The notes under the pieces were generated by a model. It saw nothing but the letters and a program-made list of their open reading frames with translations, did no database searches and was not told where the DNA came from. From Pseudomonadota bacterium (GTDB taxonomy: Bacteria; Pseudomonadota; Gammaproteobacteria; Burkholderiales; JABEVD01): a stretch of 64,000 nt of DNA. The translations under genes were made by a program, and so were the position numbers. The stretch is from positions 124,001 to 188,000 of the forward strand of contig JAJZTQ010000003.1 in assembly GCA_021848825.1 (NCBI GenBank). The letters are read 5' to 3'. Positions within the stretch are counted from its first letter, which is position 1. Every line of letters begins with the position of its first letter. Of this stretch, positions 2,752 to 46,787 are shown piece by piece.

Positions 2752-3942
2752 ATGCAACAAACTGAAAATATGGAACCACATTCCGACGATGAAATCGACA
2801 TTCTCGATCTGCTGATCGTCGTCGCAAAACACAAGAAAATGATCCTGCGCAATACTTTCATTGCAGCAGTCATTGCTATTATTTACAGCTTGCTCCTCAC
2901 CAAGATTTACACTGCTTCCACCACGATCCTGCCTCCCCAGCAGAGTCAATCGACTGCTACAGCGATGCTCGGCCAGCTTGGGGGACTGGCGGGGATGGCA
3001 GGCGCTTCCCTGGGAATAAAGAATCCGGCTGACCTTTATATTGGCATGCTGAAAAGCAGCAATGTGCAGGACGATCTCGTCAAGCGCTTCAATCTCAAGG
3101 CGCTCTACAACGCAAAAATCGATGAAGATGCCAGGAAGGCGCTCCAAGGCAGCACCGTCGTATCTGCCGGGAAGGACGGGTTCATCAAGATCGAGTTTTC
3201 TGACAAGGATCCGAAGCGGGCCGCAGAAATTGCCAATGCCTATGTCGATGAACTCGACAGGGTGACATCAGGTCTTGCCGTGACCGAGGCTTCGCAGAGG
3301 AGGCTTTTCTTCGAGACGCAATTGAATTCAGTGAAGGAAAACCTTGCGAAGGCCGAGTATGACCTCCAGCAAATGCAGGCAAAGAGCGGGATGATTCAGG
3401 ATTATCCTCAGGAGAAGGAGATCGCCGAATCGAATGCAATGCTGAGGGCTCAGATCTCGGCGAAGGAAGTCCAACTCTCGGCAATGGGGATTGGGGTCAC
3501 GCAAAGCAACCCCGAATATCTGCGCCTGAAGCAGGAAATCGCGAGCCTCAAGGACAGACTGAAAGGCGCAGATGCGGCCGACGTTTCTAGTCCGGCGATG
3601 TCGAAGGAAAGCCTGGAATACATCGAGAAATTCAGGAACGTCAAATACGATCAGGCGGTTCTGGAGATGCTCTTCAAGCAGTACGAGGCTGCCAAGATAG
3701 ACGAGGCAAAGGATTACCCTGTGATCCAGGTTCTCGACAGGGCCGTCCCTCCGGAAAGGAAGTCGAAGCCGAAGCGTGCACTCATCGTCATGCTTTCGAC
3801 AGTTACGGCATTCATGATTTCGATATTGTGGGCATTTTTCAGGGATGCCGCAGAAAAAGCAAACTCCGATCCTGAGCGATCAGGAAAGGTTCGGGAATTG
3901 AAGGCGATGCTCTTCATCAGAAAGAAGAGGGCTTCCGTTTGA
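2752..3942 (+). CDS. Wzz-family chain-length determinant / polysaccharide co-polymerase
   Basis: Inner-membrane co-polymerase that sets chain length with a Wzy polymerase, 396 residues. It has the family layout: an N-terminal transmembrane helix at about residues 35-55 (RNTFIAAVIAIIYSLLL), a long periplasmic part with heptad-like helices (about 180-330), and a second transmembrane helix near 345-365 preceded by PPERKSKPKRAL, the usual proline-rich motif before TM2. There is no C-terminal tyrosine kinase domain, so it is a Wzz/PCP-1- or PCP-2b-like form. The ribosome site is weak (only a short GGA upstream). The gene ends overlapping the TTG start of the next gene. Confidence 0.88.
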   Translation: MQQTENMEPHSDDEIDILDLLIVVAKHKKMILRNTFIAAVIAIIYSLLLTKIYTASTTILPPQQSQSTATAMLGQLGGLAGMAGASLGIKNPADLYIGMLKSSNVQDDLVKRFNLKALYNAKIDEDARKALQGSTVVSAGKDGFIKIEFSDKDPKRAAEIANAYVDELDRVTSGLAVTEASQRRLFFETQLNSVKENLAKAEYDLQQMQAKSGMIQDYPQEKEIAESNAMLRAQISAKEVQLSAMGIGVTQSNPEYLRLKQEIASLKDRLKGADAADVSSPAMSKESLEYIEKFRNVKYDQAVLEMLFKQYEAAKIDEAKDYPVIQVLDRAVPPERKSKPKRALIVMLSTVTAFMISILWAFFRDAAEKANSDPERSGKVRELKAMLFIRKKRASV

Positions 3943-4940: not shown

Positions 4941-6134
4941 ATGGCCGATTTCCCTCAAACCGTCGTCGAAGCGCTCAGATCAGTCATCGGCCAGGGAACC
5001 GTCTCTCTCCACGAGCCCGAATTCTCGGGAAATGAATGGGCCTATGTGAAGGAGTGCCTTGACACTGGGTGGGTCTCTTCAGTCGGCAAGTTCGTCGACA
5101 GCTTTGAAGGCATGCTTGCCGACTACACGGGGGTGAAACATGCTGTGGCGACGGTCAATGGCACGGCCGCGCTTCACGTATGCCTCAAGCTGGCTGGCGT
5201 CGAAAGGGACGAGGAAGTGTTGGTTCCAGCGTTGACCTTCGTTGCGACGGCGAATGCAGTCAGTTATTGCGGGGCGATTCCTCATTTCGTCGACAGCAGC
5301 GAAATCACGTTGGGAATTGACCCGGAAAAACTCAAGCCCTACCTCAAAGAAATCGCAGAAATCCGGAATGAGGGGTGCTTCAACAGGAAAACGGGGCGGC
5401 GTATCAGGGCCGTCGTTCCCATGCATACTTTCGGCCATCCGGTTGATCTGGATCCTCTTTCCGAACTCTGCGAAGAATATCGGCTTGTCCTCGTCGAAGA
5501 TGCTGCGGAATCCCTGGGTTCTTATTACAAGGGAAGGCATACGGGAAATGTCGGCAGAATTTCGGCATTGAGTTTCAACGGGAACAAAGTGATAACTACA
5601 GGTGGGGGAGGCGCGATTCTGACGAACGATCCCGATCTTGCGAAGCTTGCAAAGCACGTCACCACTACAGCGAAGATTCCGCACAGATGGTCATTCTCGC
5701 ATGACATGGTCGGCTACAATTACCGTCTCCCCAATATCAACGCAGCGCTGGGTTGCGCCCAGCTCGAACGCCTTCCTGATTTCATAGAAAGCAAGCGGAG
5801 GCTCGCCGAACATTACAGCCGGGCATTTCTGGGAATCGAAGGGATTCGTTTTTTCGCTGAACCGCCATTTGCAAAAAGCAATTATTGGCTCAACGTACTG
5901 CTCTTGGAAAAAGAGCAGGCGGGGAAACGCGACGAGTTGCTGGAAGCCACGAACAGCATTGGGATCATGACCCGTCCGTCCTGGACACTCATGCACCGTC
6001 TCGAAATGTATGGTCATTGCCCGAGGATGGATGATCTTTCAGTAGCGGAAGATCTTGAAGTGCGTCTGATCAACATTCCGAGCAGCTCGCGGCTGGGCGG
6101 AATGCGGGAAGCCAGAAGGAATGACCCCGCATGA
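4941..6134 (+). CDS. legC: LegC-type PLP aminotransferase (nucleotide sugar C4)
   Basis: DegT/DnrJ/EryC1-family aminotransferase, 397 residues, that should transfer an amino group to C4 of the 4-keto sugar made by LegB. The PLP lysine is K216 in SFNGNK, followed by the glycine-rich TTGGGGAIL; the aspartate that contacts the cofactor ring nitrogen is in VEDAAESLGS. The N-terminal stretch (SLHEPEFSGNEWAYV) and the ~50-residue insertion after the first substrate loop are typical of LegC rather than PseC or ArnB. It starts 3 bp after legB and its stop overlaps the next ATG. Confidence 0.88.
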   Translation: MADFPQTVVEALRSVIGQGTVSLHEPEFSGNEWAYVKECLDTGWVSSVGKFVDSFEGMLADYTGVKHAVATVNGTAALHVCLKLAGVERDEEVLVPALTFVATANAVSYCGAIPHFVDSSEITLGIDPEKLKPYLKEIAEIRNEGCFNRKTGRRIRAVVPMHTFGHPVDLDPLSELCEEYRLVLVEDAAESLGSYYKGRHTGNVGRISALSFNGNKVITTGGGGAILTNDPDLAKLAKHVTTTAKIPHRWSFSHDMVGYNYRLPNINAALGCAQLERLPDFIESKRRLAEHYSRAFLGIEGIRFFAEPPFAKSNYWLNVLLLEKEQAGKRDELLEATNSIGIMTRPSWTLMHRLEMYGHCPRMDDLSVAEDLEVRLINIPSSSRLGGMREARRNDPA

Positions 6135-6679
6135 CCGATATCGAAAAAATCGAAAACCTCAAGGATTTGATCATTGAGGTCAGGGGCAATCAAGTCTTGC
6201 TCGACAGCGACGTGGCTCGTATCTATGGCGTCGAAACGAGGGACATCAACAAGGCCGTTGCGAACAATCCCGACAAGTTCCCCTCGGGATATTTCATCGA
6301 ATTATCGAAACCTGAGAAAGATGAACTGGTGAAAAGTTTCCACCGGTTCGACAGGCTCAAGCACTCCACGGCCAACCCCAAGGCTTTTGCCGAAAAAGGA
6401 CTGTATATGCTTGCCACGATACTCAAAAGCCCGCAAGCAACCCGCGCAACAATCTCGATAGTCGAGACTTTCTCGAAACTGAGGGAGTTGTCCAGAAACA
6501 TCAAGGAGCTGTCAACGATAAAGGACAAGGCAGATCAAAAATCGCTCATGCATAAAAGCGGTGAACTGATCGCGGAAATATTCGATGACGATTTGCAAAC
6601 AAGCGATACCGAAACATCGATCGAATTGAATTTCGCAGTTCTGAAGTTCAAGCACACGATAAAGAAGAAAAAGCCATGA
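6131..6679 (+). CDS. ORF6N-domain (KilA-N-like) DNA-binding protein
   Basis: 182 residues. The first ~90 residues match the ORF6N domain: IIEVRGNQVLLDSDVARIYGV, then NKAVANNPDKFPSGYFIEL and a GLYMLATILKS helix. ORF6N proteins come from phages and mobile elements and are believed to bind DNA; no cellular role is settled. The C-terminal half is charged and predicted helical, ending in a lysine run. The gene is stitched into the sugar operon by 4-bp ATGA overlaps with legC upstream and the NeuC gene downstream, so it is cotranscribed and translationally coupled. It has no obvious part in nonulosonate synthesis. Confidence 0.8.
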   Translation: MTDIEKIENLKDLIIEVRGNQVLLDSDVARIYGVETRDINKAVANNPDKFPSGYFIELSKPEKDELVKSFHRFDRLKHSTANPKAFAEKGLYMLATILKSPQATRATISIVETFSKLRELSRNIKELSTIKDKADQKSLMHKSGELIAEIFDDDLQTSDTETSIELNFAVLKFKHTIKKKKP

Positions 6680-16207: not shown

Positions 16208-16356
16208 TACGGAACCGAAGAGAAATATCTGAGAGCTATATGATGGATAAGATGTTCGGTCTTGATGTGTTCTTAGGGAACTGGATTTCTTTAGCCTAAT
16301 GTTGTTGCAATGATTTGCGGAAAATGTGCACTGCAACCATAAAGGAGACGTTTGTC

Positions 16357-17880
16357 ATGGAACAGCAAAAGAGCAGGACCATAGAAAATCTGAAGGATGC
16401 TTTCGACGCCAGGAAGAACTACTATAGCAACCGTGCTTCATGTATTTATCCCGTCCATCTTCGTCCTGGCACTGATCTTCACATCGTATATCTGAATTAC
16501 TGGACCCTGAAAAACGGGATTTCAGCAGATAAGCTGCTCATCAATTTTCGCGTCTACGACAAAGCGGGGTTTTTGGTTTTGCGAGAAACGCAGTCAAGTG
16601 TTGCGAGTCATAACCAAATATCGATTCGCAAGATATTGTCCGAGCGGACGATGTCTGATCTAGACAATTTCGATGGCATGGTTGAAGTGGAAACAATCTC
16701 CACTGCAAATATTCGATTTCCGTTCCCCGGGATCATCGGCATCTATCAGGCGGGGACGCTTTTTAGCACTGTACACGCGGCCGGGCGAGTGAAGAACCCG
16801 GACGAACCGCAGCGGGTCATATACACGCAAGAGTCGGATTGGACATGTAAATTCGGAGAAAACGTTACGCCGTTCTTTCATTATTTCAACGGGCCGACTG
16901 TTCCCCGGAAGGATACAATCTCGGTTGTATTAAGGGCGGCAAATGGGAAGCCAATCGAGACGAAGGACGTGTCAATTGCGCACTTGCCCGCCTTTGGCTC
17001 GGAGCTGTTTCTTGTTTCTGATCTGTTCGACAACGCATTGCTCAAGGATGGTTGCTTTGTATCTGTGTCTGTCGAGCACAATTCGATATTTCCGCGACTG
17101 GTGGTAGGGAATTACTTCAGGGATGCGCATTATCTCGAGGTGACACACTCATTCCCGATCATCGAGAAGAACGATTACTGTCGGCTAGATGAGAAAGTTT
17201 CATTTCAATCCATGCTTTGTGCTTACACCAACGCTGAATTGGATCTGAAGGTGCACGTGTTCCCAACAAATTGCGAGGGGGATTTTACTGCAAAGATCAT
17301 GCATCAACGACATGATCACCCCGCATTGGTTGAGAAGGTCGGTTTCGTGAATTACACGCAAGAGATGCTGTCAGAGCCGATCACGTACCAGCTTGAAGAC
17401 ACGGAAAGATTCCTGTGCGTGCAGATGTCTGGCGCTCGCGTTCCTTCTCGTTTCAATGGCTCGTACATTTACACGGTGAAGCATTTGGACTCGGCATACA
17501 GTACAGATATCGCGGATGGCGCAGATTCGTCGGCCTACCCGCCCAAATACAGGCACTGGGGATATGCCTTGGTTGACGAGGGATTCGACACCGCTATTCT
17601 GGTTAGAAATAGCACCCACCATCCTGCATCAACTCGTGCTAGCAATGGGGTGCTGAAACTATATGGCGATGACTTCCAAAAATTCGTGAATGTTCGAGTG
17701 GAGGCGGAGTCTGCGGCCTCGATCAAGGTATCTGAACATATTAACCTCGGTAAACAGGAAAAAGGGCAGCGGCCGCGCTTTATCAGTTGGTTGCTTGAAA
17801 TGGAAGAGCCTACTTGTGAGACGTTTTGGGTAGGATACCGTGAGACTGATGGCGCAATATTCGGCGACCATGGGATGTAG
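16357..17880 (+). CDS. protein of unknown function in the nonulosonate locus
   Basis: 507 residues, not recognised. The ATG at 16357 is preceded by AAAGGAGA at good spacing and is preferred to the in-frame ATG at 16315. There is no signal peptide or transmembrane helix. The protein looks soluble, mostly beta, with many aromatic residues and repeated hydrophobic-charged alternation, as in carbohydrate-binding or beta-sandwich proteins. Motifs that may help a search: SNRASCIYPVHLRP, FRVYDKAGFLVLRETQ, YTVKHLD and RHWGYALVDEGFDTA. It lies between ptmA and an acetyltransferase, so it may process or bind the polysaccharide or its precursor. Confidence 0.7.
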   Translation: MEQQKSRTIENLKDAFDARKNYYSNRASCIYPVHLRPGTDLHIVYLNYWTLKNGISADKLLINFRVYDKAGFLVLRETQSSVASHNQISIRKILSERTMSDLDNFDGMVEVETISTANIRFPFPGIIGIYQAGTLFSTVHAAGRVKNPDEPQRVIYTQESDWTCKFGENVTPFFHYFNGPTVPRKDTISVVLRAANGKPIETKDVSIAHLPAFGSELFLVSDLFDNALLKDGCFVSVSVEHNSIFPRLVVGNYFRDAHYLEVTHSFPIIEKNDYCRLDEKVSFQSMLCAYTNAELDLKVHVFPTNCEGDFTAKIMHQRHDHPALVEKVGFVNYTQEMLSEPITYQLEDTERFLCVQMSGARVPSRFNGSYIYTVKHLDSAYSTDIADGADSSAYPPKYRHWGYALVDEGFDTAILVRNSTHHPASTRASNGVLKLYGDDFQKFVNVRVEAESAASIKVSEHINLGKQEKGQRPRFISWLLEMEEPTCETFWVGYRETDGAIFGDHGM

Positions 17881-18603: not shown

Positions 18604-19451
18604 ATATATCTCTTGTTATTTTAAGCGGTGCTATGCGCTCAGGTACTTCGGTACTAGGAAAGGTTCTCGGCTCTTTTGACCAAGTCGAGTTCTTCTACGA
18701 ACCAATGACCTTTGTCCGCCTGTTGTTAAACAAGTCCTCTCACGCGCTAGTTGACGATTATCTATATTTTGATTTGTTGATGCCTTCATTGGCCGGTAGG
18801 AATATCAACTTAAATCCGCATGATGACAGCTCGATTCACCACTACAAATCGAAGGCGTTTATTGAAAACAGACTCTCCAGGTCGTGGCCGTCTGATGTGA
18901 TTCATGAAGCAAATGACAATGTTACTTGCCTGGTGAAATATCCATCCTATGTGAACGAGATTGCCGATTTTGAATCGAAATCCTTTCCCACAAAGAAAGT
19001 GTATATAGTACGCGAGCCAGTCGGCAATGTGCTGTCCCTTCTACGCAAGAAATGGTTTAGCGACAGCGTCATTGAAGGGGGGGTTCGTGGTGATTTTAAG
19101 CGCGTAGAGAATCGAAATGCGCCTTTGTGGTTGTCTGATCAGGACGTGGATGCTTTTTTTCGGTTGAATGAAACTGGGCGATGCCTGTTCTACTACAACA
19201 AGGTTTTGGGCGTGGATTTGGACAAGTATCTCGTGGTTGTGAGCTATGAAAGCCTGTGCAATCGCCCGGCAGAAGCGGTGACAAATATTGGTCGAAAACT
19301 GGGCATCAAAGCAGGTCAACTGACGGATGTTTTAGTTGAGGGAATGCGGCCGGAACAAATCCAATCCTTGGATATGACCGAACAAAATAAGCTTGTTTAT
19401 GATGAGGCCATGTGGAATTACAAGCGAGTTCTAAATAGAGTCAATGTCTAA
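18600..19451 (+). CDS. sulfotransferase-family protein
   Basis: 283 residues. The PAPS 5'-phosphosulfate loop is at residues 9-20 (SGAMRSGTSVLG), and the 3'-phosphate-binding arginine region appears as YIVREPVGNVLSLL. It should transfer sulfate from PAPS, here presumably to a glycan sugar. It overlaps both neighbours, by 4 bp upstream and 8 bp downstream. No PAPS-making genes are in the window. Confidence 0.75.
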   Translation: MNISLVILSGAMRSGTSVLGKVLGSFDQVEFFYEPMTFVRLLLNKSSHALVDDYLYFDLLMPSLAGRNINLNPHDDSSIHHYKSKAFIENRLSRSWPSDVIHEANDNVTCLVKYPSYVNEIADFESKSFPTKKVYIVREPVGNVLSLLRKKWFSDSVIEGGVRGDFKRVENRNAPLWLSDQDVDAFFRLNETGRCLFYYNKVLGVDLDKYLVVVSYESLCNRPAEAVTNIGRKLGIKAGQLTDVLVEGMRPEQIQSLDMTEQNKLVYDEAMWNYKRVLNRVNV

Positions 19452-20598
19452 GAAACTTATCTTTATTGGTTCATTGCCGACTTCGAAATTATTTGGCGAG
19501 AAACTGGATGCATGGTGGTTTAGCAATCACGGTTTTGAGGTCGAGTTTTGGGACCTATCCAAGCTTTTCTTTACGAATGATAGGCTTTCCGCCTATTTCG
19601 GCGGAAAACACGACTATCGCTACATAGGTCCAGGCCATCGGATATTTGAGAATGTCGATGAGGCGAAAGGAGCGCTCTCGGAAATTGCCGACGGAACGAT
19701 AGTTTGGCACATCAGTCGCTTCTACAAATTGGCCCCCGATGACTGGATTTTCGCAGAGTTGCGGCGCCGAAATATTTCCTACTGTCTGCAGCATTTCGAT
19801 ACGCTCATCGAGCCGACCTCTATTGGTCAAAAGCCACGATATTGGTTGCGCACGCAACGGCAAAGATACCTCAACAAGCAATTGGCTCCTGAGTTTGTCG
19901 TTGGGTCCGGCCGGCTGGGCAGGAAGCAGTCGCAGTCGGTGGTTCCACAGGCTCGATTTGTCAGCATCCCTTCGATCAAGGTACTGTGGCGGCCGTCAGA
20001 ACCCATAGCAGATGGGGCGTACAATCTTTTTGTAGATGAAAATGTTGATTATGCGCCAGATGCGAACATGTTGGGTTATACGATTTCAAGCGACCCGGAC
20101 GCCTACTATGCGCGAATGAACAAATTGTTCGACGATATAGAAGAGTGGAGCGGGAGTCCGGTTATCATCGCGGCATCAGGTAAATATCATTACAAGCAAG
20201 ATAGATTCAACGGGCGACCCCTGATCTATGGACAGACACTTCGATTAATACAACATGCTCGTGGAGTCATTGGCCACATGTCACTGGCTTTGGAACAATG
20301 CTTAGTATCAGAAAAACCACTGCTCGTCGTGGATGACCCGAGCTTTACGGTAGAAAAACGTAGAGGGTATCCACTCTCCTTGATTCATTTATTGATCAAG
20401 CCAATCAACGTAGAGGAGGTCTCCAAGCAAACGTACCTCCAGGCAATGTCGCTCAAAATGGAAAATATGCGCAATTTGGTTCTCGATTATCTCAAAGAAG
20501 ATTCGGTAACATCTGACTATTATTCCATTATCAGTAGCGAACTCGGCGTTGATGCGAAGTTCGAACGGCGCCAGACGTCCGAAAAGGCGGGTAAATGA
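19444..20598 (+). CDS. unknown protein, possibly a GT-B-like transferase
   Basis: 384 residues, not assigned to a family. The N-terminus KKLIFIGSLPTSKLFGEKLDAWW looks like the first beta-alpha unit of a GT-B glycosyltransferase, and the C-terminal part (ARGVIGHMSLALEQCLVSEKPLLVVDDP) resembles the nucleotide-sugar-binding half of surface-glycan transferases. No signal peptide or membrane helices. It overlaps the sulfotransferase gene by 8 bp and the ABC transporter gene by 4 bp, so it is a working part of the operon. A nonulosonyl (sialyltransferase-like) transfer would fit the need of the locus but is only a guess. Confidence 0.65.
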   Translation: MSKKLIFIGSLPTSKLFGEKLDAWWFSNHGFEVEFWDLSKLFFTNDRLSAYFGGKHDYRYIGPGHRIFENVDEAKGALSEIADGTIVWHISRFYKLAPDDWIFAELRRRNISYCLQHFDTLIEPTSIGQKPRYWLRTQRQRYLNKQLAPEFVVGSGRLGRKQSQSVVPQARFVSIPSIKVLWRPSEPIADGAYNLFVDENVDYAPDANMLGYTISSDPDAYYARMNKLFDDIEEWSGSPVIIAASGKYHYKQDRFNGRPLIYGQTLRLIQHARGVIGHMSLALEQCLVSEKPLLVVDDPSFTVEKRRGYPLSLIHLLIKPINVEEVSKQTYLQAMSLKMENMRNLVLDYLKEDSVTSDYYSIISSELGVDAKFERRQTSEKAGK

Positions 20599-31780: not shown

Positions 31781-32775
31781 AAAGTCTCGTTCGGTCATCC
31801 TATTATTGGGTGGCGAGGATGCCCGGGATCAAGCTGCTCTCGAAACCCTGGAAAGGAACGGGCGCCATACTCTGCTACCACAGGGTGCTTCCCGGGGAGC
31901 GGGTAAGGTCGGATGTTTCGCCGAACAGGGGGCTTGCCGTTTCCGTCGAGCGATTCGAGGAACAGATGAGGCATCTCTCGGAAAACTATAATGTGGTTTC
32001 CATGGATAGAATGGTCGAGCATGTCGAGAATGGCGGGAAAGAATTCCTCGTCGCGGTCACCTTCGATGACGGCTACAAGGACAATTTTCAGTATGCTTAT
32101 CCCATACTGAAAAAATACGGCATCCCCGCCACCATCTACGTCATCACCCGGTTTCTCGAGGGGGATACTTCGATGTGGTGGAAGGAACTTTGGGAGAGAT
32201 TGGCGGAAGTCGGAGAATTCGAAGTTGAAGTCTGTGGCGAAAGGCGATCGTGGCGAACGCAAGGTCATTCGGCGAAAGTGCAATGCTTCAGGGAAATGCG
32301 GAAAATATTGCTTGGTTCAGAGAAGGAAATCTATCTTGATCTGTTGCGCCAGATCTCCGGGGATTCTCCGAAGCAATATCCGGAAGACTGCATGACAGCG
32401 GAAGAAGCCAGGCTTCTCGATAAAGATGATCTGATCACCATCGGAGCCCACACCCATTCCCATTTCTGTCTCGCAAGTCTTTCGGAGAATGAGGTTGCCG
32501 AGGAGATGATGAAATCCAGGGAAATCCTGGAAAAGGCACTGGATCACCCGGTAATGCATCTGGCCTATCCTTATGGCAAACCGGATGAAGCAGGGGAAAA
32601 GGATTTCAGAATAGCGAGGGGATGCGGGTTTTCATCAAGTGTCGTCACGAAGGTAGGGAACATTTCAAGCGGTCATGATGCCATGTCGTTGCCCAGGCTC
32701 GAAATCAAGGATCAATTGGATGGCCGGCGATTCGAAGGCGTCCTATCCGGTTTCTCGGCGATGGTGGGGAGATGA
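31768..32775 (+). CDS. polysaccharide deacetylase (NodB domain)
   Basis: 335 residues. NodB motif 1 is TFDDGYKDNF at 98-107; motif 2 is GAHTHSHFCL, where the histidines would bind metal; LAYPYGKPDEAG is motif 3. ILCYHRVLP near residue 35 is the usual entrance of carbohydrate esterase family 4 proteins of export loci. There is a short hydrophobic segment but no clear signal peptide, so it may act in the cytoplasm or be membrane-associated. Overlaps the acyltransferase gene by 13 bp and the polymerase gene by 4 bp. Confidence 0.88.
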   Translation: MEALKSLVRSSYYWVARMPGIKLLSKPWKGTGAILCYHRVLPGERVRSDVSPNRGLAVSVERFEEQMRHLSENYNVVSMDRMVEHVENGGKEFLVAVTFDDGYKDNFQYAYPILKKYGIPATIYVITRFLEGDTSMWWKELWERLAEVGEFEVEVCGERRSWRTQGHSAKVQCFREMRKILLGSEKEIYLDLLRQISGDSPKQYPEDCMTAEEARLLDKDDLITIGAHTHSHFCLASLSENEVAEEMMKSREILEKALDHPVMHLAYPYGKPDEAGEKDFRIARGCGFSSSVVTKVGNISSGHDAMSLPRLEIKDQLDGRRFEGVLSGFSAMVGR

Positions 32776-34079
32776 TCGATGCAGGTACATTGAAAGTGGA
32801 TGGTTCCAGCGGAAATATGGGAGGGCATGCGGGCTTGTCCACCAGAATGGCTACGAGCTGGGTTATCCTGTCCCTTTGCTTCAGTTCGATATCCTACTAC
32901 ATTAATCACCTGTTTTTCCCCACGAGTGCCTTTGTCGAGATATTCATTCTGGTCAATTTCGTGATCCTGATCCTGTTCCAGAGGAGCAGGATGCTTCATC
33001 TGCCTTCGAGGGTCGTGACGATGGGCGTCTGGGCGATGTACTCCGTAGCGATAATTACCTATCTATTGCTGATATCCGTTCTCAAGGATTCTGGCTTCGA
33101 CAAAGAGTTGTATCGCCTCTTGGTGATCCCCGTCATGCTGTTTTCACTTTCATTGTTGCAGGTGGACTACATCAAGATCTTTCGTGCAGTTTACATTCTG
33201 GCCGTGATCGCAGGAATATACGAGATAGTGGAAATTTGGATGTTCAATTATGTACTAAGCGGAGATTTCACGAGCTTCTTTCTTCATTCCGCCTTGGCTT
33301 CATACGATAATTCTCAATATACGCGGGACGTGAATTTTTTCGGGTTGTTTACCTTTTTGAGACCATTCGGACTATTCGGCGAAACCCAGAAGTCACCTTT
33401 TATATTTGCCCTCGGGGCAATTGCCCACTGGTATGTCTCAAAGAACGATGGCAGGAACATGGGCAAAGCGTCGTGGCCGCACTTTTATAGCCTCATGATG
33501 CTTTTCTTCGCATTTATTTCCGATGGAACAACCGGGTTTGTAACGATGATTGTCGTTTATATGGTTCTGTTCGGCAGGGATGTAATAGGGCGCTTCGGCG
33601 CTTACTTTTTCATGCTTGCTGTGTTTGCCGCTATTGCTGTTTTTTTCAACACAAATCCGGGATACGGGAGTCCACTGTCGAAGGATGTCGATGCCTTTTT
33701 CAATGAAGGACCTCTGGAGATTCTCTTCGGAGCGGGTTTTTACGATCCTCAAAATGCTATTTCGATTTTGGGGATGGCGCACGAGCATTATTTCATGCGC
33801 ATATTGATCCAGATGGGTCTGTTCTTGACCGCCGCATTCCTGGCCTTTTTCATGGCAACGATAAGTTCGAAAAAGGAGCTGTCCAGATGGAAATGGGCCA
33901 ATGTTCTTACGCTCTTATTGATGACATCGCATTATTCCATTCTTAACGTCTATTTCGTGATGATTGCGGTTTCGATGTTCATGCTGGCGTTGGCAAATCA
34001 TCGAAGTTGGAATATTCCGCATCAGAGAGTCAAAGAACGTTCACTTGATTTGAAGCCGAAGAGATGTGCAGAGTCCTGA
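32772..34079 (+). CDS. Wzy-like polymerase / O-antigen ligase-type membrane protein
   Basis: 435 residues with about ten hydrophobic helices and one large periplasmic loop (about residues 165-195 and again 285-345), the layout of Wzy and WaaL proteins. The loop holds RPFGLFGETQKSPF and AHEHYFMRILIQMGL, arginine/histidine patches common in this group. Sequence conservation in Wzy is very low, so assignment comes from topology and position among glycosyltransferases and a Wzz homologue. The gene overlaps its upstream neighbour by 4 bp and the next by 16 bp. Confidence 0.75.
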   Translation: MIDAGTLKVDGSSGNMGGHAGLSTRMATSWVILSLCFSSISYYINHLFFPTSAFVEIFILVNFVILILFQRSRMLHLPSRVVTMGVWAMYSVAIITYLLLISVLKDSGFDKELYRLLVIPVMLFSLSLLQVDYIKIFRAVYILAVIAGIYEIVEIWMFNYVLSGDFTSFFLHSALASYDNSQYTRDVNFFGLFTFLRPFGLFGETQKSPFIFALGAIAHWYVSKNDGRNMGKASWPHFYSLMMLFFAFISDGTTGFVTMIVVYMVLFGRDVIGRFGAYFFMLAVFAAIAVFFNTNPGYGSPLSKDVDAFFNEGPLEILFGAGFYDPQNAISILGMAHEHYFMRILIQMGLFLTAAFLAFFMATISSKKELSRWKWANVLTLLLMTSHYSILNVYFVMIAVSMFMLALANHRSWNIPHQRVKERSLDLKPKRCAES

Positions 34080-40327: not shown

Positions 40328-40672
40328 ATGAAAAGAACAGCAATATTGATCGCAGCCTTGTACGCCCTGTCCGTGGTTCCTTCCGCTATGGCGACTGCCC
40401 CGACGGTGAACCCTGACTCCGGCGGTGCAGTTGGCGGTGGCGGTGGCGGTGCTGGTGCAGGCGGTGCGGGCGGTGCGGGCGGTGCCGGTGCTCCTGGTGG
40501 TGACGCAGCAGGCGCAGCAGGCGAAGCAGGCGCCGGAATAGGCGTCAATACCGGAGCGCTCATCGGCGCGGCTGGTCTTGCAGGCGTTGCGGCAGCCGTT
40601 GGTTTGGCGACCGCTTCGAGCTCGAGCGTAACTCCTTCGACTTCGACTTCGACTTCGACTTCGACGCAGTGA
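40328..40672 (+). CDS. secreted glycine/alanine-rich repeat protein
   Basis: 114 residues. A signal peptide (KRTAILIAALYALSVVPSAMA) is followed by a Gly-Ala-rich region built from short repeats (GGAGGAGGAG, DAAGAAGEAGAG), a hydrophobic stretch (GALIGAAGLAGVAAAVGLA, about residues 75-95) and a Ser-Thr tail coded by a hexanucleotide repeat. No known domain. It has its own promoter and terminator inside the export locus. It could be a surface-anchored or matrix protein; the hydrophobic segment could insert in a membrane. Confidence 0.85.
   Translation: MKRTAILIAALYALSVVPSAMATAPTVNPDSGGAVGGGGGGAGAGGAGGAGGAGAPGGDAAGAAGEAGAGIGVNTGALIGAAGLAGVAAAVGLATASSSSVTPSTSTSTSTSTQ
40636..40665 (+). repeat. hexanucleotide repeat TTCGAC x5
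   Basis: Five perfect copies of TTCGAC encode the Ser-Thr tail of the glycine-rich protein. In-frame, so slippage would only change tail length. Confidence 0.85.
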
Positions 40673-40689: not shown

Positions 40690-40724
40690 GCCCCGGCGCG
40701 ACAACCGCGCCGGGCTTTGTTTTG
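40690..40724 (+). terminator. intrinsic terminator
   Basis: A GC-only 9-bp stem (CCCGGCGCG / CGCGCCGGG) with loop ACAAC, followed by CTTTGTTTTG. It lies 18 bp after the glycine-rich protein gene and ends that transcript. Confidence 0.82.
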
Positions 40725-40755
40725 CCATTCAGGACAGCCATTTTAAAATATCTGA

Positions 40756-41382
40756 ATGAAATTCCGGCTGCCCTTCCTGCTTTGCTGCAGCATTTTTTCG
40801 GGTTGCTCAACGCTCGGCGACAACCCCATATTCACAACGACCGCTCAGCTCGCCAAGAGGGAATTCGGAAGCTCGAGCGGCAAATCCGGGCGCCTCGCAT
40901 TCGACCCCCATTACCATTACTTGCAGCTGATCGTAAACGGCCAGGCCGTTTACCTGGCGCTGGGCAATGTCGATCACGGCACCGAGGTCTGGTACAGCGC
41001 CCAAGGTGAAGTGCTGCGCATCAGAAACGGGCGGATGGCGGGGATCATGGGAACCTCCACCGAATGGCGCAACGTGGTCCTTCCCGAATTCCCTTCCTGG
41101 TCGGAAATCGAAAGACTCAAGGTTTACAGGTGGGCGCGGCGCATGGATATCATGCCCGGCTACAAATACGGCATGCTCGACCAGCTCACTCTGCATGCGA
41201 TCGCGCCCGTCGCCAGCAGCAATCTCCATGAAATCGATCCTTCAAGGCTCGCCTGGTTCGAGGAGAGTTCGAATCATCTGCCGCCTTCGAGATATGCGGT
41301 GGACCTGGAGAAGAACCTGGTCGTCTACGCCGAGACCTGCCTTTCCCAGGATTTTTGCTTTTCCTGGCAGAGATTGCGATGA
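40756..41382 (+). CDS. YjbF/GfcB-family lipoprotein
   Basis: 208 residues. Lipoprotein signal peptide with cysteine at residue 17 (IFSGC); the body (DPHYHYLQLIVNGQAVYLALG, TEVWYSAQGEVLRIRNGRMAG) matches the YjbF/GfcB group that accompanies exopolysaccharide export in group 4 capsule and yjbEFGH loci. Anchored in a membrane, periplasmic side. Its stop overlaps the ATG of the next gene, a GfcC/YjbH-type protein, which is the normal partner. Confidence 0.83.
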   Translation: MKFRLPFLLCCSIFSGCSTLGDNPIFTTTAQLAKREFGSSSGKSGRLAFDPHYHYLQLIVNGQAVYLALGNVDHGTEVWYSAQGEVLRIRNGRMAGIMGTSTEWRNVVLPEFPSWSEIERLKVYRWARRMDIMPGYKYGMLDQLTLHAIAPVASSNLHEIDPSRLAWFEESSNHLPPSRYAVDLEKNLVVYAETCLSQDFCFSWQRLR

Positions 41383-44300
41383 AGAAGCGGCTCCTCCTGC
41401 TCTCCCTCCTCGTCTCTTCCCAGCTCCAGGCGAAAAGGCTTTCGGACTGGCTTCTGGAGCAGAAGCCTTCGCCCGATGCCTATCCCCTCGGCCTTTCATG
41501 GACTGTCCCTGCCGAAAAGGTTCCACAGAACGACCTCAAGCACGGATTGCTGAAAGCGCTGGACGGGATGGGAAAGAATCGGCTCGCGGCACTGGTTTCC
41601 TCCCTCCCCGTGACGGGGAGGGTCCCGGTCGGAAATGCCGATGCGCGATGGCTGCAGGTGAACCCTGCCATGGATCCCGTGATCCATCCGGAGGACAGGA
41701 TTTTCCTGCCGGAGAGGCCGAAGACAGTCGCCGTCCTGACCCCGGATGGCAGGCTTTGCAGGGTGATCCATGCCGCAGGATTGCATGCCGGAGACTACAT
41801 CAGGCGATGCGGCGCCGATTCGGGTGTGGATTGGGCCTATGTCGCCGAGCCCGACGGAAGGACAAGGAAAATCGGGATAGCGCTCTGGAATTTGCAGAAG
41901 CAGGACGAGCCCGCGCCGGGTTCGTGGATCTGGGCGCCCGATCGCAGTTTTCCGGATGAATTCTCCGAAAAGCTGGTCGCTTTTCTGGCCACCCAGGGGC
42001 CGGTCCCGGATCTTTCGCCCATCACGCCCCAGGCTTCTCCATTTTCTTCTCCTTCAAAGTCGCCGGTCATCTCGACCCTTTTCCCTGATCAGGATCTGCC
42101 GGTCACGGCGAACGACTGGGGGGAGGCGGGGCTCCTGCAGACGCCCACTGCCCGGATGAGAAGGGCGGGGGATTTTTCCTTCACTGTCAGCAGGGTCTAT
42201 CCCTATACCAGGGGAAACATATTCTTCCAGCCCTTTTCCTGGATGGAGGCGGGGTTCCGCTATACCAACATCAGCAACAGGCTCTACGGCCCTGTTTCCT
42301 TCAGCGGAAACCAGGCATACAAGGACAAGAGCATAGACGTGAAATTCAGGGTGAACCGCGAATCGGCATGGCTCCCTGACCTTTCCATGGGATTCAGGGA
42401 TATCGCGGGTACAGGCCTCTTTTCAGGCGAATATCTCGTCGGTTCGAAGCGGACAGGACCTTTCGACTGGAGTCTGGGACTGGGTTGGGGATATGTGGGG
42501 AACAGGGCGGATCTCGGCAATCCCGTAGGCGCCATTATTCCTTCGTTCGATGTCAGGAAGGTGTCGGCCACCACCGGCAATTTCGCATTCGGATCCTATT
42601 TCCATGGCCCGACCGCCGCATTCGGAGGCGTCCAGTATCAGACGCCCTGGGATCCCCTGATCCTGAAGCTGGAATACGACGGGAACAATTACCGGAATGA
42701 GCCTCTCGACAACCCGCTGCCGCAGAGCAGCCCATGGAATTTCGGGGTTGTGTACAGGTGGGGGAGGAACATCGACATCACGACAGGCGTCGAGCGGGGA
42801 AACACGGCGATGTTTTCGGTCAGCTTCCATGCGGATCTCGACAGACTCTTCATGCCAAAGCTGGCCGATCCGCCCCCCGTCCCGGTAAAAGCCCTCCGCC
42901 CCGATGTGAATCCTGACTGGATGAATACCGCGAAGGACATCAAGGCGCAGGCGGACTGGCAGGTCTCCAAAATCCAGAAGGATGGAAACGATCTTTCGGT
43001 GACGGTGGATGATGCCCATCCCGTCTACTGGAAGAACAGGCTCGACAAGGCAGTCTCTGTTCTCCACCGGGACAGCCCGTCGGACGTGGACCATTTCAGC
43101 ATCGTCTACAGGGAGCACGGCGCCAAGGTGGCTGAGCACGATGTCGACAGGCAGGCATGGGTCGACAATCGCACCGAGTATCTGCCGCCATCGGAGAAAA
43201 AGAACCCTGTCGTGGCAAGGGATCCCGATGCGGAAGCGCAGGGTGTCGAACTCTTCAAGTCGGATCCGCCCATGTTCGACCCACATCTCGGGATGAACTT
43301 CAACTACTATCTCGGCGGACCGAACGGCTTCGTCTTCTACCAGTTCGCGCCTTCAGCCAGCGCAACGCTGAATTTCACCCGGAACACATGGCTGCAGGGA
43401 TCGGTCCAGTATGACGTACTGGACAACTACAACCAATGGACGGACGACGGCACCAGTCTGCTTCCGAGGGTCAGGACCTACGTCAGGGAATACATGACGA
43501 CCTCCAGGTTGACCATGCCGAACCTCCAGTTCACTCATGTCGGAAGGCTGACTGAAAACCAGTATTACAGCGTCTACGGCGGCTATCTCGAGATGATGTT
43601 CGCCGGTGTGGGGGCGGAATGGCTCTATCGACCTTTTGATGGCAGGACGGCTTTCGGGGTGAATGTCAACGAAGTGCAGCAGCGCGATTTCGCCCAGAAT
43701 TTCAATCTGCAGAATTACCGGGTATTGACCGGGCACGGCACGCTTTACTGGGACACGGGTTGGCAGAACGTGCTCGGAACGCTGAGCTTCGGCCGCTACC
43801 TTGCAGGGGATATCGGCGCCACAATCGATTTCTCCAAGGTTTTCGACAATGGCGTCACGGTGGGCGCCTTCTTCACCAAGACGAATGTCTCGGCAGCACA
43901 GTTCGGAGAGGGAAGCTATGACAAGGGTATTTACCTCCAGATCCCCTTCGACGCGATGCTCATGAAGTCTTCAGACACAGTAGCCAATTTCGTTTGGAAG
44001 CCGCTGACGAGGGATGGCGGCGCGATGCTCGCGAGAGCCGTCACCCTTTACGACGTGACGAGCGTGAGGGATCCAAGGGCATTGCAATATCAGCCCGCCG
44101 CCGTGCCTGACGACTATCAGCCGCCGGAAAAAAGGAATGATGAATGGAAGCCAAAGGTAGACCTGCCTGTGCCTTCCATCCAGCCCAAGCCTGATTCGAA
44201 CCAGTGGCAAGGCAAGGGGCAGGATTATCGCAGGAGCCTGGAGGAAGAACTCTACGGCGCCGGATTCGGCAACATCCGTGTTTCGCTCGACGGCAGCAGC

Positions 44301-45311
44301 AGGCTTTCGGTCTTTCTCTCCAACGAGAACCTCCGCCCGGACAGCCTTGCGGTTGGAAGGGCTGCAAGGATCATTCTTTCCCGCGCCCCGCTTGATGTAC
44401 GCGAAATCAGGATCGAATTCGCAGAGCATGTCCATGCGGACGTGATCTACGAATTCCTCGATCCTGACAGGCTCAAGGCCTATTTCGACGGCAGGATAGG
44501 AAAGGAAGACCTGAGGCAGTACGTGAAGGTGCAGTATATGAATCCGACTGCCGTGCAGAATGATCCGCTTTACGAGCTGGACGACATGAAGCCGACAGAT
44601 ACGAGCTTTTCGCAGGCTTTCATGCCGGACACGAGGGTCGTATCGCGCGTCGAGCGGGATGTCTTCAATGCGGGCAAGATCGCATCTCAGACTGACTGGG
44701 TCAAGACAGGCGCGATCGGGGCGGGGCTCGTCCTGGGAAGCGCGCTTTTCGACAAGAGCGCATACAAGTTCGCCTTGAATCATGCGTCCAGCAGCATCCT
44801 CAGGAATTTCGATTCAGTCGGCAATGCCCTTCCCTGGGTGGAGAGCGCAGGCGTCGCATTGGCAGCCCTGGGAAGCTCGGATCCGCAGCTTTCGAGGACA
44901 GGCTATGCGTCATCCGAAGCTGTGGTGACTTCGTTCGGCCTGGTGCTCGGATTGAAGACTGTCATCGGACGCGCGAGGCCCTGGACCGGCCAGGGCAATC
45001 ACAGTTTCCATTTCATGGCGGGCTCTTCATCAAACGGAACGGACGGATTCCCTTCGGGGCATGCCATAGCTGCCTGGTCGGCGATCACGCCATTTGCAGA
45101 GGAATACCACATGCCCTGGCTTTACGGGCTTGGGGTGATCACCGACCTGTCGCGAGTCGGAAGCAGGAACCACTGGGTCTCGGACACGGTCGCGGGAAGC
45201 TTCCTCGGCTACGGCATAGGGAAGTATTTCTGGGAAGCATCCAAGGAAAACGAAGGCCCCCATGTATTCCTCATGCCTTACGGGGCGGGGCTTTCATGGG
45301 ACCTGCCCTGA
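41379..45311 (+). CDS. GfcC-like + YjbH-like outer-membrane protein fused to PAP2 phosphatase
   Basis: 1310 residues. A signal peptide (KKRLLLLSLLVSSQLQA) opens it. Residues ~20-215 resemble the GfcC/YjbG periplasmic beta-grasp protein (RWLQVNPAMDPVIHPEDRIFLP, PAPGSWIWAPDR). From ~240 to ~1060 there is a YjbH/GfcD-like beta-barrel (TANDWGEAGLLQTPTARM, then many amphipathic strands). The last ~170 residues hold the three PAP2 motifs: KTVIGRARP (K1193, R1200), PSGH (1225-1228) and SRVGSRNHWVSD (H1265, D1269). Separate genes in E. coli (gfcC, gfcD) are thus joined with a phosphatase that may work on polyprenyl or lipid phosphates. ATG 41379 overlaps the lipoprotein stop. The domain borders are estimates. 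Confidence 0.82.
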   Translation: MKKRLLLLSLLVSSQLQAKRLSDWLLEQKPSPDAYPLGLSWTVPAEKVPQNDLKHGLLKALDGMGKNRLAALVSSLPVTGRVPVGNADARWLQVNPAMDPVIHPEDRIFLPERPKTVAVLTPDGRLCRVIHAAGLHAGDYIRRCGADSGVDWAYVAEPDGRTRKIGIALWNLQKQDEPAPGSWIWAPDRSFPDEFSEKLVAFLATQGPVPDLSPITPQASPFSSPSKSPVISTLFPDQDLPVTANDWGEAGLLQTPTARMRRAGDFSFTVSRVYPYTRGNIFFQPFSWMEAGFRYTNISNRLYGPVSFSGNQAYKDKSIDVKFRVNRESAWLPDLSMGFRDIAGTGLFSGEYLVGSKRTGPFDWSLGLGWGYVGNRADLGNPVGAIIPSFDVRKVSATTGNFAFGSYFHGPTAAFGGVQYQTPWDPLILKLEYDGNNYRNEPLDNPLPQSSPWNFGVVYRWGRNIDITTGVERGNTAMFSVSFHADLDRLFMPKLADPPPVPVKALRPDVNPDWMNTAKDIKAQADWQVSKIQKDGNDLSVTVDDAHPVYWKNRLDKAVSVLHRDSPSDVDHFSIVYREHGAKVAEHDVDRQAWVDNRTEYLPPSEKKNPVVARDPDAEAQGVELFKSDPPMFDPHLGMNFNYYLGGPNGFVFYQFAPSASATLNFTRNTWLQGSVQYDVLDNYNQWTDDGTSLLPRVRTYVREYMTTSRLTMPNLQFTHVGRLTENQYYSVYGGYLEMMFAGVGAEWLYRPFDGRTAFGVNVNEVQQRDFAQNFNLQNYRVLTGHGTLYWDTGWQNVLGTLSFGRYLAGDIGATIDFSKVFDNGVTVGAFFTKTNVSAAQFGEGSYDKGIYLQIPFDAMLMKSSDTVANFVWKPLTRDGGAMLARAVTLYDVTSVRDPRALQYQPAAVPDDYQPPEKRNDEWKPKVDLPVPSIQPKPDSNQWQGKGQDYRRSLEEELYGAGFGNIRVSLDGSSRLSVFLSNENLRPDSLAVGRAARIILSRAPLDVREIRIEFAEHVHADVIYEFLDPDRLKAYFDGRIGKEDLRQYVKVQYMNPTAVQNDPLYELDDMKPTDTSFSQAFMPDTRVVSRVERDVFNAGKIASQTDWVKTGAIGAGLVLGSALFDKSAYKFALNHASSSILRNFDSVGNALPWVESAGVALAALGSSDPQLSRTGYASSEAVVTSFGLVLGLKTVIGRARPWTGQGNHSFHFMAGSSSNGTDGFPSGHAIAAWSAITPFAEEYHMPWLYGLGVITDLSRVGSRNHWVSDTVAGSFLGYGIGKYFWEASKENEGPHVFLMPYGAGLSWDLP

Positions 45312-45358: not shown

Positions 45359-45736
45359 ATGCGCATGAAATTCAACATGATGATGAATTCGAGGATAATC
45401 CCGCTTGCGCTGTTCCTGTCAGGATGCGCTTTCTTCAGTCCGCACAGGCAAAACGTCCCCGATCAGGGGATTCACGAGGCGCTCGTCAGAGACAGGATCC
45501 GGTACGAGGCCGAAGCCTCATCCGGAAGGCCTGGCGCCTATGTCTGCAGAAAAATGAAGGTGGGCATATCGGAAGTCGACTGGATCAAGGGAACGGTTCG
45601 GCAAGTCATGGGGGAGAAGATAGAGGTGCAAGTGGACGATCCAGGGCGTTATCCTCACCAAGTGAACGGCGCCCAGATTTCGGAAGGGACCATTGTCCGC
45701 GATGAAGAAGTGAACTGGATCCCTTGCGTGAAATGA
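45359..45736 (+). CDS. small predicted lipoprotein
   Basis: 125 residues. The signal ends in LALFLSGC, a good lipobox, so the mature part is a ~102-residue lipid-anchored periplasmic protein. It contains VCRKMKVGISEVDWIKGTV and ends in EVNWIPCVK, giving two cysteines that could pair. No family recognised. Several alternative starts (45365, 45377, 45380) are in frame. Its stop overlaps the start of the diacylglycerol kinase gene. Confidence 0.68.
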   Translation: MRMKFNMMMNSRIIPLALFLSGCAFFSPHRQNVPDQGIHEALVRDRIRYEAEASSGRPGAYVCRKMKVGISEVDWIKGTVRQVMGEKIEVQVDDPGRYPHQVNGAQISEGTIVRDEEVNWIPCVK

Positions 45737-46086
45737 AGGGGATGGGGTTTCTTTCCAGGCTGGGATGCGCCATTGAAGGAATACGCATCGCTTTCAGGCA
45801 TGAATCGAGCTTCAGGCTGCAGCTTGCAGCTGCCGCTTTCGCCCTGATGTCGCTCTTCTTTCTGCGGCCTTCCCTCCTTTGGTGCGCGCTTGTGGTCGTC
45901 ATGATTTTTCTCGTGCTCGCGGCCGAACTCTTCAATACCGCAATCGAGCATGTGCTGGACGGCCTCCATCCGGAAAATGCGGAATTCGTCAGAATCGCGA
46001 AGGACTGCGCCGCGGCGGCCGTCCTGGTTCTGTCCATCGCATCGGTTCTCGTCTTCGTCTTCATGGTGATATCGACATGGTCTTGA
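45733..46086 (+). CDS. dgkA: diacylglycerol kinase, DgkA type
   Basis: 117 residues, the normal size for DgkA. Three membrane helices (LQLAAAAFALMSLFFL, LLWCALVVVMIFLVLAA, CAAAAVLVLSIASVLVFVFM) and the active-site motif ELFNTAIEHVLD. It phosphorylates diacylglycerol, or undecaprenol in Gram-positive relatives, in the inner membrane. ATG 45733 sits on the preceding stop. Placement beside polysaccharide genes and a PAP2 domain may hint at lipid-carrier recycling, but this is inference. Confidence 0.9.
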   Translation: MKGMGFLSRLGCAIEGIRIAFRHESSFRLQLAAAAFALMSLFFLRPSLLWCALVVVMIFLVLAAELFNTAIEHVLDGLHPENAEFVRIAKDCAAAAVLVLSIASVLVFVFMVISTWS

Positions 46087-46787
46087 GGATCCTTGCAGCC
46101 CTGTTCGCATTGCTGCTGGTTTCCCGTGCGAATGCCGAATCTCCGATATATATCGAGGAAATGACCTCCCCTGAAGTCTCGGCATCGATCAGGGCGGGCA
46201 GGAACATCGCGATCATCTATGCCGGGAGCACGGAGCAGAACGGCCCCTACATGGTGCTGGGCAAGCACAATTTCATTGCGCATCGCCTTGCCGGAATGAT
46301 CGCGAGACAGCTCGGCAACGCGCTCGTCTACCCTGTTCTTCCGTTCGCGCCAACGGGAGACCCGGAAAAGCACAGCGGCCACATGCGCTATGCCGGCTCG
46401 GTCAGCCTGCGCATGGATGTCTACGGCGCAGTGATCAGGGATGTGGCGTTGAGCGCGATGGCTTCAGGCTTCAGGTATGTGCTGATCATGGGGGACCATG
46501 GCGGCGGGCAGAAGATGCTCTCGGCGGTTGCCGAGGCGCTGGATGCGGCTTCTCGACCTTACGGCGTTCGCGTTTTCTACATCGGGTCGGTCTATGCCGA
46601 AATGCCGGGAGGGCATGCGGGAAGGGAAGACCTATCCATGCTGATGGCCATCGAGGGGAGCAGCAAATGGGTGAGAGCAGGCCTCGTCGCTAAAACCGGC
46701 GCATCCAGGGAGGAAGGAGAGAGGCTGATCAGGGAGCGGGTGAATGCCGCAGTGAGCGAAATAAGGAAGCTTACCGCTGCGCCTTGA
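46077..46787 (+). CDS. secreted creatininase-family protein
   Basis: 236 residues. A signal peptide (VLRILAALFALLLVSRANA) is followed by the creatininase fold: AIIYAGSTEQNGPYMVLGKHN with metal-binding residues, PFAPTGDPEKHSGH, MGDHGGGQ and MPGGHAGREDLS. Known members are amidohydrolases acting on creatinine or cyclic amide substrates; exported forms are uncharacterised. It overlaps the dgkA gene by 10 bp and the convergent hydroxylase gene by 17 bp. Confidence 0.8.
   Translation: MVLRILAALFALLLVSRANAESPIYIEEMTSPEVSASIRAGRNIAIIYAGSTEQNGPYMVLGKHNFIAHRLAGMIARQLGNALVYPVLPFAPTGDPEKHSGHMRYAGSVSLRMDVYGAVIRDVALSAMASGFRYVLIMGDHGGGQKMLSAVAEALDAASRPYGVRVFYIGSVYAEMPGGHAGREDLSMLMAIEGSSKWVRAGLVAKTGASREEGERLIRERVNAAVSEIRKLTAAP

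Follow-up and report, generated by a model that had tools for sequence, protein, structure and literature searches.

A putative outer-membrane pore of the YjbH/GfcD family joined in one frame to a GfcC-like domain and a predicted PAP2 phosphatase domain in a Burkholderiales polysaccharide cluster

The DNA analysed here (hereafter the window; 64,000 nucleotides, positions 124,001 to 188,000 of contig JAJZTQ010000003.1 in assembly GCA_021848825.1, from a Pseudomonadota bacterium of the GTDB lineage Burkholderiales, JABEVD01) holds a long open reading frame (ORF) at 41379-45311 (+), which runs from an ATG start through 1310 residues without an internal stop. The initial annotation, made from the sequence alone, had described this as a single 1310-codon frame joining GfcC, YjbH and a PAP2 phosphatase, and all three parts, together with the catalytic motifs of the last, were recovered with Pfam, with profiles and in relatives. 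From the N-terminus the protein (features all on the + strand) comprises a Sec-like signal sequence judged by eye (residues 1-18; 41379-41432), a GfcC-like domain (residues 19-235; 41433-42083; PF06251 and a profile match to PDB 3p42), a YjbH/GfcD double barrel that includes its own middle domain, MD1 (residues 244-895; 42108-44063; PF06082), a conserved pore-plug segment (residues 879-903; 44013-44087; aligned to GfcD and YjbH of E. coli), another middle domain of the YjbH type, MD2 (residues ~925-1066; 44151-44576; PF06082, a tree and an AlphaFold2 (AF2) block), and a predicted soluble-type PAP2 phosphatase domain (residues 1080-1310; 44616-45308; PF01569, motifs and PDB profile matches). 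Searches with the undivided protein gave no matches in the PDB by phmmer and no families in an NCBIfam scan. We considered that a frameshift or assembly error might have fused separate genes, as the initial annotation had cautioned; among the relatives one locus (L038) has only a barrel end behind an unrelated stretch at its start and may be truncated or misassembled, and nothing of the kind was seen for the window. A full-length fusion is present in five of the nine genomes of the genus (the four fusions besides that of the window being 62-80% identical to it), and YjbH and PAP2 share a frame in most YjbH-bearing genomes of an order-wide sample described below; since the join recurs across genomes we ruled out an artefact, the chance of which we regard as vanishingly small.

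The N-terminal part matched GfcC_C (PF06251) over residues 136-187 with an E-value of 1.2e-5 in the whole protein (25.7 bits against a cut-off of 20) and of 8.1e-7 when searched alone. A profile built from 15 N-terminal domains of related loci matched GfcC itself (PDB 3p42, residues 60-210 of 236, leaving the ends of GfcC uncovered) at 1.2e-13, the next match being at 0.24, and so the proposed GfcC assignment held. Since the model of the GfcC N-terminus (PF20616) found no match in the fusion at E≤1 though it scores 5.1e-51 against E. coli GfcC as a control, we describe this part as a diverged GfcC, or "GfcC-like". Directly ahead of the fusion, and overlapping its start through an ATGA, lies a YjbF/GfcB-like lipoprotein gene (40756-41382, +), also as first annotated; alone it matched PF11102 below the cut-off (2.4e-4), and a 12-sequence profile of the protein matched GfcB/YmcC (PDB 2in5) at 6.8e-5, ahead of an unrelated chain (6.2e-3). 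A small YjbE/GfcA-like protein is encoded before it (40328-40672, +); this had no meaningful Pfam match and was assigned by eye from a Ser/Thr-rich ...STQ tail in common with E. coli YjbE. By these likenesses the E. coli order yjbE-F-G-H appears to be retained, with G and H fused and extra domains appended.

The match to the YjbH family (PF06082) over residues 244-895 is nearly complete (profile positions 2-657 of 658, E=1.5e-239, 797.7 bits against a cut-off of 24). The initial annotation had extended a YjbH-like barrel over residues 240-1060; its family identity stands, and its extent does not, the barrel ending at residue 895 and residues ~925-1066 forming the second middle domain. Excerpts of PMC11494523 describe an AlphaFold model of GfcD with a 12-stranded N-terminal barrel, a periplasmic middle domain, a 13-stranded C-terminal barrel and a lateral gate, report the same 12- and 13-stranded barrels with a lateral gate for five homolog models, and define the plug segment. 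Plug residues 879-903 of the fusion align with residues 674-698 of E. coli GfcD, and by analogy with that model the plug, which comes after the last strand, would turn back into the C-terminal barrel's lumen. Because the extra domains (MD2 and PAP2) start after the conserved plug, and the plug folds back into the pore in the published model, both should lie on the periplasmic side, at the entrance to the C-terminal barrel; the periplasmic placing is supported by the homology of MD2 to the domains that lie between the two barrels. MD2 searched alone matched positions 254-370 of the PF06082 profile (E=9e-6), and another scan matched positions 252-390. An AF2 model of residues 897-1310 (two sequences) had a mean predicted local distance difference test score (pLDDT) of 40.8, with 63-81 in the MD2 block (~947-1056). 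Comparison of the MD2 model (residues ~939-1026) by VIA-align placed it nearest to motifs that build rings in FliF (Z up to 7.9), EscJ (7.5) and PrgK (7.3), level with a ribosomal protein (7.5) and with precursor lipoproteins of sex pheromones (7.8), a range that unrelated folds reach. PAP2 folds were absent from the matches to this model, to which we attach no weight.

PF01569 (PAP2) matched residues 1182-1288 at 6.7e-13 (49 bits against a cut-off of 27.2), or 3e-14 on the piece alone. All three PAP2 motifs occur at the residues first named for them: K1193 with R1200-P1201, P1225-S-G-H1228, and S-R1259 with H1265 and D1269. In an alignment of 38 rows, from which we set aside three stand-alone proteins (L007, L014, L017), K1193, R1200, P1201, S1226, R1259, H1265 and D1269 were present in 35 of 35 clade sequences and H1228 in 33; these 35 rows include the stand-alone L053, the contig-edge L040, the near-copies L010/L011 and L031/L057/L082, and both copies of genome G007. 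The clade also has a stretch TPxAxEYxxPxLY, of which T, P, A, Y, L and Y were found in every one of the 35. Identity to the PAP2 domain of the window falls as low as 28% in a 31-row alignment, and with its motifs so conserved the domain looks catalytically active. Two of the short stand-alone PAP2 proteins from the genus of the window (L007 and L017) have PSGE in place of PSGH and keep a diverged TP...EY..PW stretch.

The initial annotation had been concerned that the inner-membrane helices usual for PAP2 domains are weak here. By hydropathy, 30 of 31 clade domains, that of the window included, had no 19-residue segment above 1.6, the exception (L067) reaching 1.64. Four stand-alone PAP2 controls of the genus (L003, L004, L006 and L014) had 2, 3, 3 and 4 such peaks, respectively; a fifth (L007) had one, which we read as a signal peptide, and its PAP2 part alone reached a maximum of 1.21. 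When a profile of 31 clade PAP2 sequences was searched against the PDB, the best match was a PAP2 family phosphatase (9htz, 1.4e-4), followed by the acid phosphatases 9jq0 (3.2e-3) and 1d2t (6.4e-3), all three of which we take to be soluble enzymes. Eight PAP2-type chains scored at E≤0.11, six of them acid phosphatases by name (presumably class A), one being 9htz and one LpxE (0.1); vinculin chains from 0.48 upward were taken as chance. The PAP2 domain thus looks like the soluble type, nearest by profile to class A acid phosphatases, and both hydropathy and profile rule out an integral-membrane PAP2 of the PgpB/BcrC/LpxE type. Because the clade looks soluble, the concern over missing helices falls away, while the other part of that interpretation, a phosphatase tied to an outer-membrane export barrel, stands as a prediction. 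Soluble PAP2 proteins are known in general (PMC12419801), and the excerpted text of that source makes no mention of YjbH or GfcC.

How often the fusion occurs had been left as a question by the initial annotation. Of 399 genomes sampled from the order, 53 had a YjbH match at E≤1e-3, and in 32 of these (33 loci, G007 having a second partial copy) YjbH and PAP2 lie in one frame. The remainder comprised one genome with MD2-PAP2 cut by a contig end (G206), 12 with YjbH without PAP2, two with fragments (G272 and G082), and six with weaker matches that were not sorted by architecture (G107, G127, G152, G247, G319 and G346); this sort covers loci fetched from the search matches, not every match listed. 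Five of the 33 fusion loci begin at a contig end (L015, L031, L049, L056 and L071). In a phylum-wide sample of 398 genomes YjbH was found in 60, four of them from the order, and a PAP2 profile of the fusion clade matched 26 at E≤1e-12, the frame being long in just two of these, G000 and G063, which belong to the order; the other PAP2 matches listed had frames of at most 368 residues. The fusion is therefore common within the order, and none was seen outside it in the phylum sample at E≤1e-12. The 16S gene would fit Burkholderiales in the GTDB sense: its best listed plasmid-borne match is 90.8% identical, and Burkholderia and relatives lie at about 90.3-90.7%. A search of viral contigs with the PAP2 profile gave 29 pattern matches and no confirmed ones, plasmids had no match to residues 888-1310, and the sole match in a genome-contig search was L045, apparently the same contig as G007:C118.

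We sorted these proteins into five architectures. Class A has the complete order GfcC-barrel-MD1-barrel-MD2-PAP2 at 10 loci (the window, L010, L011, L012, L045, L046, L047, L057, L058 and L082), and class A' is the same with MD2 not detected (L050 and L054). Class B is GfcC-YjbH only (L048, L051, L052, L055 and L059), class C is barrel-MD-barrel-PAP2 of ~940 residues without GfcC (16 genomes: L062-L075, L079 and L080, the start of L071 being cut), and class D is plain YjbH of ~700 residues (L060, L061, L076-L078, L081 and L083). One genome (G264) has class B at one place and, on a different contig, a separate 345-residue PAP2 protein (L053) whose start looks by eye like a possible signal sequence.

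In a tree of 51 middle domains (midpoint-rooted, with long inner branches and 18 of 48 branches starred), those of E. coli GfcD and YjbH fell together with L060/L061 and with MD1 from the GfcC-fused proteins, while the 11 MD2 sequences (100/99) were nested among class C middle domains and those of the remaining class D proteins. The MD1 and MD2 sets separate at 100/100, which rules out an origin of MD2 by tandem duplication of the protein's own middle domain; likewise, a single-sequence MD2 query at the thresholds used picked up middle domains of classes C and D but missed MD1. Because the tree places MD2 in a YjbH-PAP2 lineage distinct from that of MD1, which goes with GfcD/YjbH of E. coli, the protein is most likely a chimera, in which MD2-PAP2 from a class C protein stripped of its barrels was added behind a GfcC-YjbH from a lineage like that of E. 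coli. Class C has its second barrel between the middle domain and PAP2, and in class A MD2 and PAP2 adjoin without a barrel; since the pair was kept together in class A although a barrel separates them in class C, we infer that they may act as one module, and the A' proteins argue that PAP2 can work without MD2. In a PAP2 tree the fusion domains formed one clade (88/88) apart from 17 of 18 stand-alone proteins, the exception being L053, which is nested inside next to the fused L023 (100/98); this suggests that L053 is a secondary split from a fusion. For that tree 13 of the 18 loci L087-L104 were kept, the rest failing a motif filter, and its bootstrap is unsettled.

Directly after the fusion are two genes whose called frames overlap, a small lipoprotein-like partner (45359-45736, +) found with a home-made hidden Markov model and a DgkA-type lipid kinase (45724-46086, +; PF01219, 4.8e-29). 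The former has a conserved C-terminal VCR...NWIPC domain, for which we coin the name WIPC. It recurs at L047, L049, L053, L056, L063, L073 and other loci. By a loose pattern 14 of 24 WIPC frames checked also had MORN-like repeats, and Pfam found three MORN stretches in each of four WIPC proteins scanned; the copy in the window has no MORN repeats, and its best Pfam match was no better than 0.075. WIPC lies 3' of the fusion on the same strand at 18 of the 33 fusion loci (with overlapping ORF starts in some) and nearby but elsewhere at three more (L056, L069 and L082); the stand-alone L053 and the contig-edge L084 have it behind them too. DgkA is 3' of the fusion at 10 of the 33 loci; these ten come from five families, with six belonging to the genus of the window. 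One or the other partner is found behind the fusion at 22 loci. Neither stood directly after any of the 12 PAP2-less YjbH genes, one of which (L083) offers only 466 bases downstream. Fisher tests with 12 controls, or with 11 when L083 is left out, gave p-values of 7e-5 or 2e-4 for either partner, 0.0012 both times for WIPC, and 0.042 or 0.046 for DgkA. The dgkA of the window is a second copy in its genome; the other (G000:C41:39914-40216) is ~1.4 kb from a membrane-type PAP2 gene (L003), and the genome also encodes BacA and four other PAP2 proteins, with which it is unlikely that the fusion is the cell's sole undecaprenyl diphosphate phosphatase. Directly before the YjbF-like gene we noted a hairpin of nine G-C pairs that resembles a terminator and, after it, a promoter-like site (40692-40749); these could make yjbF, the fusion, WIPC and dgkA one unit, and such sites barely exceed the shuffled count.

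The window as a whole is a large surface-polysaccharide cluster with an OPX export protein, a Wzz protein, nonulosonate genes, an ABC exporter, sugar transferases and an initiating transferase. The OPX protein (178-2613, +) has Poly_export and SLBB domains and no Wza_C was found in it, and the Wzz-type co-polymerase (2752-3942, +) matched PF02706 and PF13807 (Wzz and GNVR only), with no kinase domain found. A membrane protein at 32772-34079 is Wzy-like by our own reading and had no Pfam match at 1e-4. Several fusion loci carry OPX and Wzz genes or the shared partners. Wza_C was absent at E≤5 from all of 10 chosen OPX proteins (six from fusion loci and four beside PAP2-less YjbH), GfcE as a control scoring 1.2e-15; two of the OPX proteins (L050 and L075) had a sub-threshold GfcC_C match at 0.002. 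If these OPX proteins come without a Wza_C helix, the YjbH barrel would be the likely outer-membrane conduit. In the excerpted text of a survey (PMC9603273), YjbH homologues are counted beside OPX genes of classes 1 and 2, with none beside class 3.

Among known systems the fusion most resembles GfcD/YjbH (E. coli group 4 capsule and yjbEFGH; PF06082), having the complete double barrel, the plug and YjbE- and YjbF-like genes upstream that follow one another as they do there, and differs from it in having GfcC in front and MD2 and PAP2 behind the plug. With the group 4 capsule operon (gfcABCDE-etp-etk) it shares a gfcB/yjbF-like lipoprotein beside gfcC and gfcD functions; no etp-etk pair was seen among the ORFs scanned in the window. 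In E. coli, GfcB, GfcC and GfcD are binding partners of one another, and a join of GfcC to GfcD is already known from OtnG of Burkholderia thailandensis (995 residues; both from excerpts of PMC8592465). Like the fusion, OtnG has GfcC and GfcD/YjbH in a single chain, but judged by its length alone it would have no room for MD2 and PAP2. Compared with the class A acid phosphatases (PDB 9jq0 and 1d2t, with 9htz by profile), which are presumably exported, the PAP2 domain has the same motifs and lack of membrane helices; unlike these separate enzymes it is the C-terminal domain of a pore and carries the clade stretch. We found no account of the PAP2 addition, MD2, the chimeric origin or the partner genes in open-licence PMC papers, a scope that leaves subscription papers and automatic annotation outside, and the initial annotation had overlooked MD2, the chimeric origin, the frequency of the fusion and the downstream partner genes.

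Our preferred reading, plausible to us and held tentatively, is that the tethered phosphatase removes a phosphate from the glycan during export, or from the lipid anchor of that glycan. A polysaccharide from the Wzy-type cluster would reach the pore, where PAP2 would remove a phosphomonoester from it; the likeliest target would be a reducing-end phosphate or a lipid-anchor phosphate left from the polyprenyl-diphosphate carrier, the latter being attractive because GfcD has been proposed in print to export a lipid-anchored polysaccharide. Phosphate removal would thereby couple maturation of the glycan to its passage, with GfcC, YjbF and the WIPC partner organising the periplasmic side and DgkA, where present, re-phosphorylating the lipid alcohol freed by the pathway. 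In its fullest form, a pore that finishes its own cargo, with the plug-linked phosphatase clipping glycan or anchor phosphate at entry and the DgkA of the same operon re-phosphorylating the freed lipid, we consider the proposal rather doubtful. Unlinked phosphatases may do the same job in trans for ordinary GfcD/YjbH pores. Separately, in E. coli K-12 the periplasmic phosphatase gene appA adjoins etk of the gfc operon (L107, 1-916 and 1031-3211), perhaps by chance, though the pairing is worth noting with such action in trans in mind. Several observations weigh against phosphate removal at the pore. The substrate is a guess; the PAP2 block of the AF2 model reached a pLDDT of only 21-35, and because it is unusable the PAP2 fold and position rest on sequence profiles and the published GfcD model; two relatives of one genus (L069 and L071) have PSDL for PSGH, with Leu at H1228, so that catalysis there may be altered; and the 12 PAP2-less YjbH loci of the same order indicate that the phosphatase is dispensable for some such pores. 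As to the partners, 11 of the 33 fusion loci have neither directly behind, one PAP2-less locus (L081) has a MORN-WIPC gene upstream, and the statistics ignore relatedness, which leaves the link to the fusion weak, above all for DgkA.

The same DgkA neighbours, spread over five families, would fit a PAP2 that acts on lipid carriers or phospholipids (e.g., undecaprenyl (di)phosphate or phosphatidate) rather than on glycan, with DgkA reversing the reaction or salvaging the product, and many PAP2 enzymes do use lipid phosphates. The soluble character of the domain speaks against this, as do the outer-membrane tether, which would keep PAP2 away from the carrier pool, and the BacA and four other PAP2 proteins already in the genome, and we think it unlikely. 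DgkA would also be accounted for if PAP2 were a phosphotransferase that adds phosphate or a phospho-head-group to the glycan, the by-product diacylglycerol being recycled much as in E. coli, where DgkA salvages the diacylglycerol left by head-group transfer in the periplasm; phosphate transfer is within reach of class A acid phosphatases, but the motif set belongs to hydrolases and the head-group transferases of the superfamily known to us are multi-pass membrane proteins, leaving this slightly harder to credit. A little lower again we place a general periplasmic acid phosphatase for phosphate scavenging, anchored incidentally on an abundant outer-membrane barrel: its nearest solved relatives are mostly acid phosphatases by name, a broad-range group, yet the fusion domains form a clade apart from nearly all stand-alone proteins (L053 being nested within it), and OPX/Wzz genes or shared partners accompany several fusion loci. 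That MD2-PAP2 is mainly structural, gating or docking the pore with catalysis secondary or absent, would suit its attachment behind the plug and the loss of H1228 in two relatives; it is improbable given that the other catalytic residues are invariant in the 35 sequences though identity falls so low.

A fused enzyme domain with an intact active-site motif offers a chemical hint to the cargo of a widespread and poorly understood family. The excerpts of PMC11494523 describe GfcD homologs as the largest group of multi-barrel outer-membrane proteins, and those of PMC8592465 state that no direct data assign GfcD a function in E. coli. The recurrence of a pore-plus-phosphatase design across many related bacteria gives an enzymatic clue to the role of the family, bears on how a polymer leaves its diphosphate lipid carrier, or is finished, before exit from the cell, and supplies WIPC and DgkA as two candidate partner families.

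Elsewhere in the cluster, proteins encoded at 16315-17880 (521 residues) and 19444-20598 (384 residues) had no Pfam match at 1e-4. A creatininase-family frame (45879-46787; 4.7e-29) follows dgkA, and the sequence after its likely start, which lies inside the frame, resembles a signal peptide. An ORF6N-domain protein (6131-6679; 2.9e-26) is an odd neighbour amid the nonulosonate biosynthesis genes.

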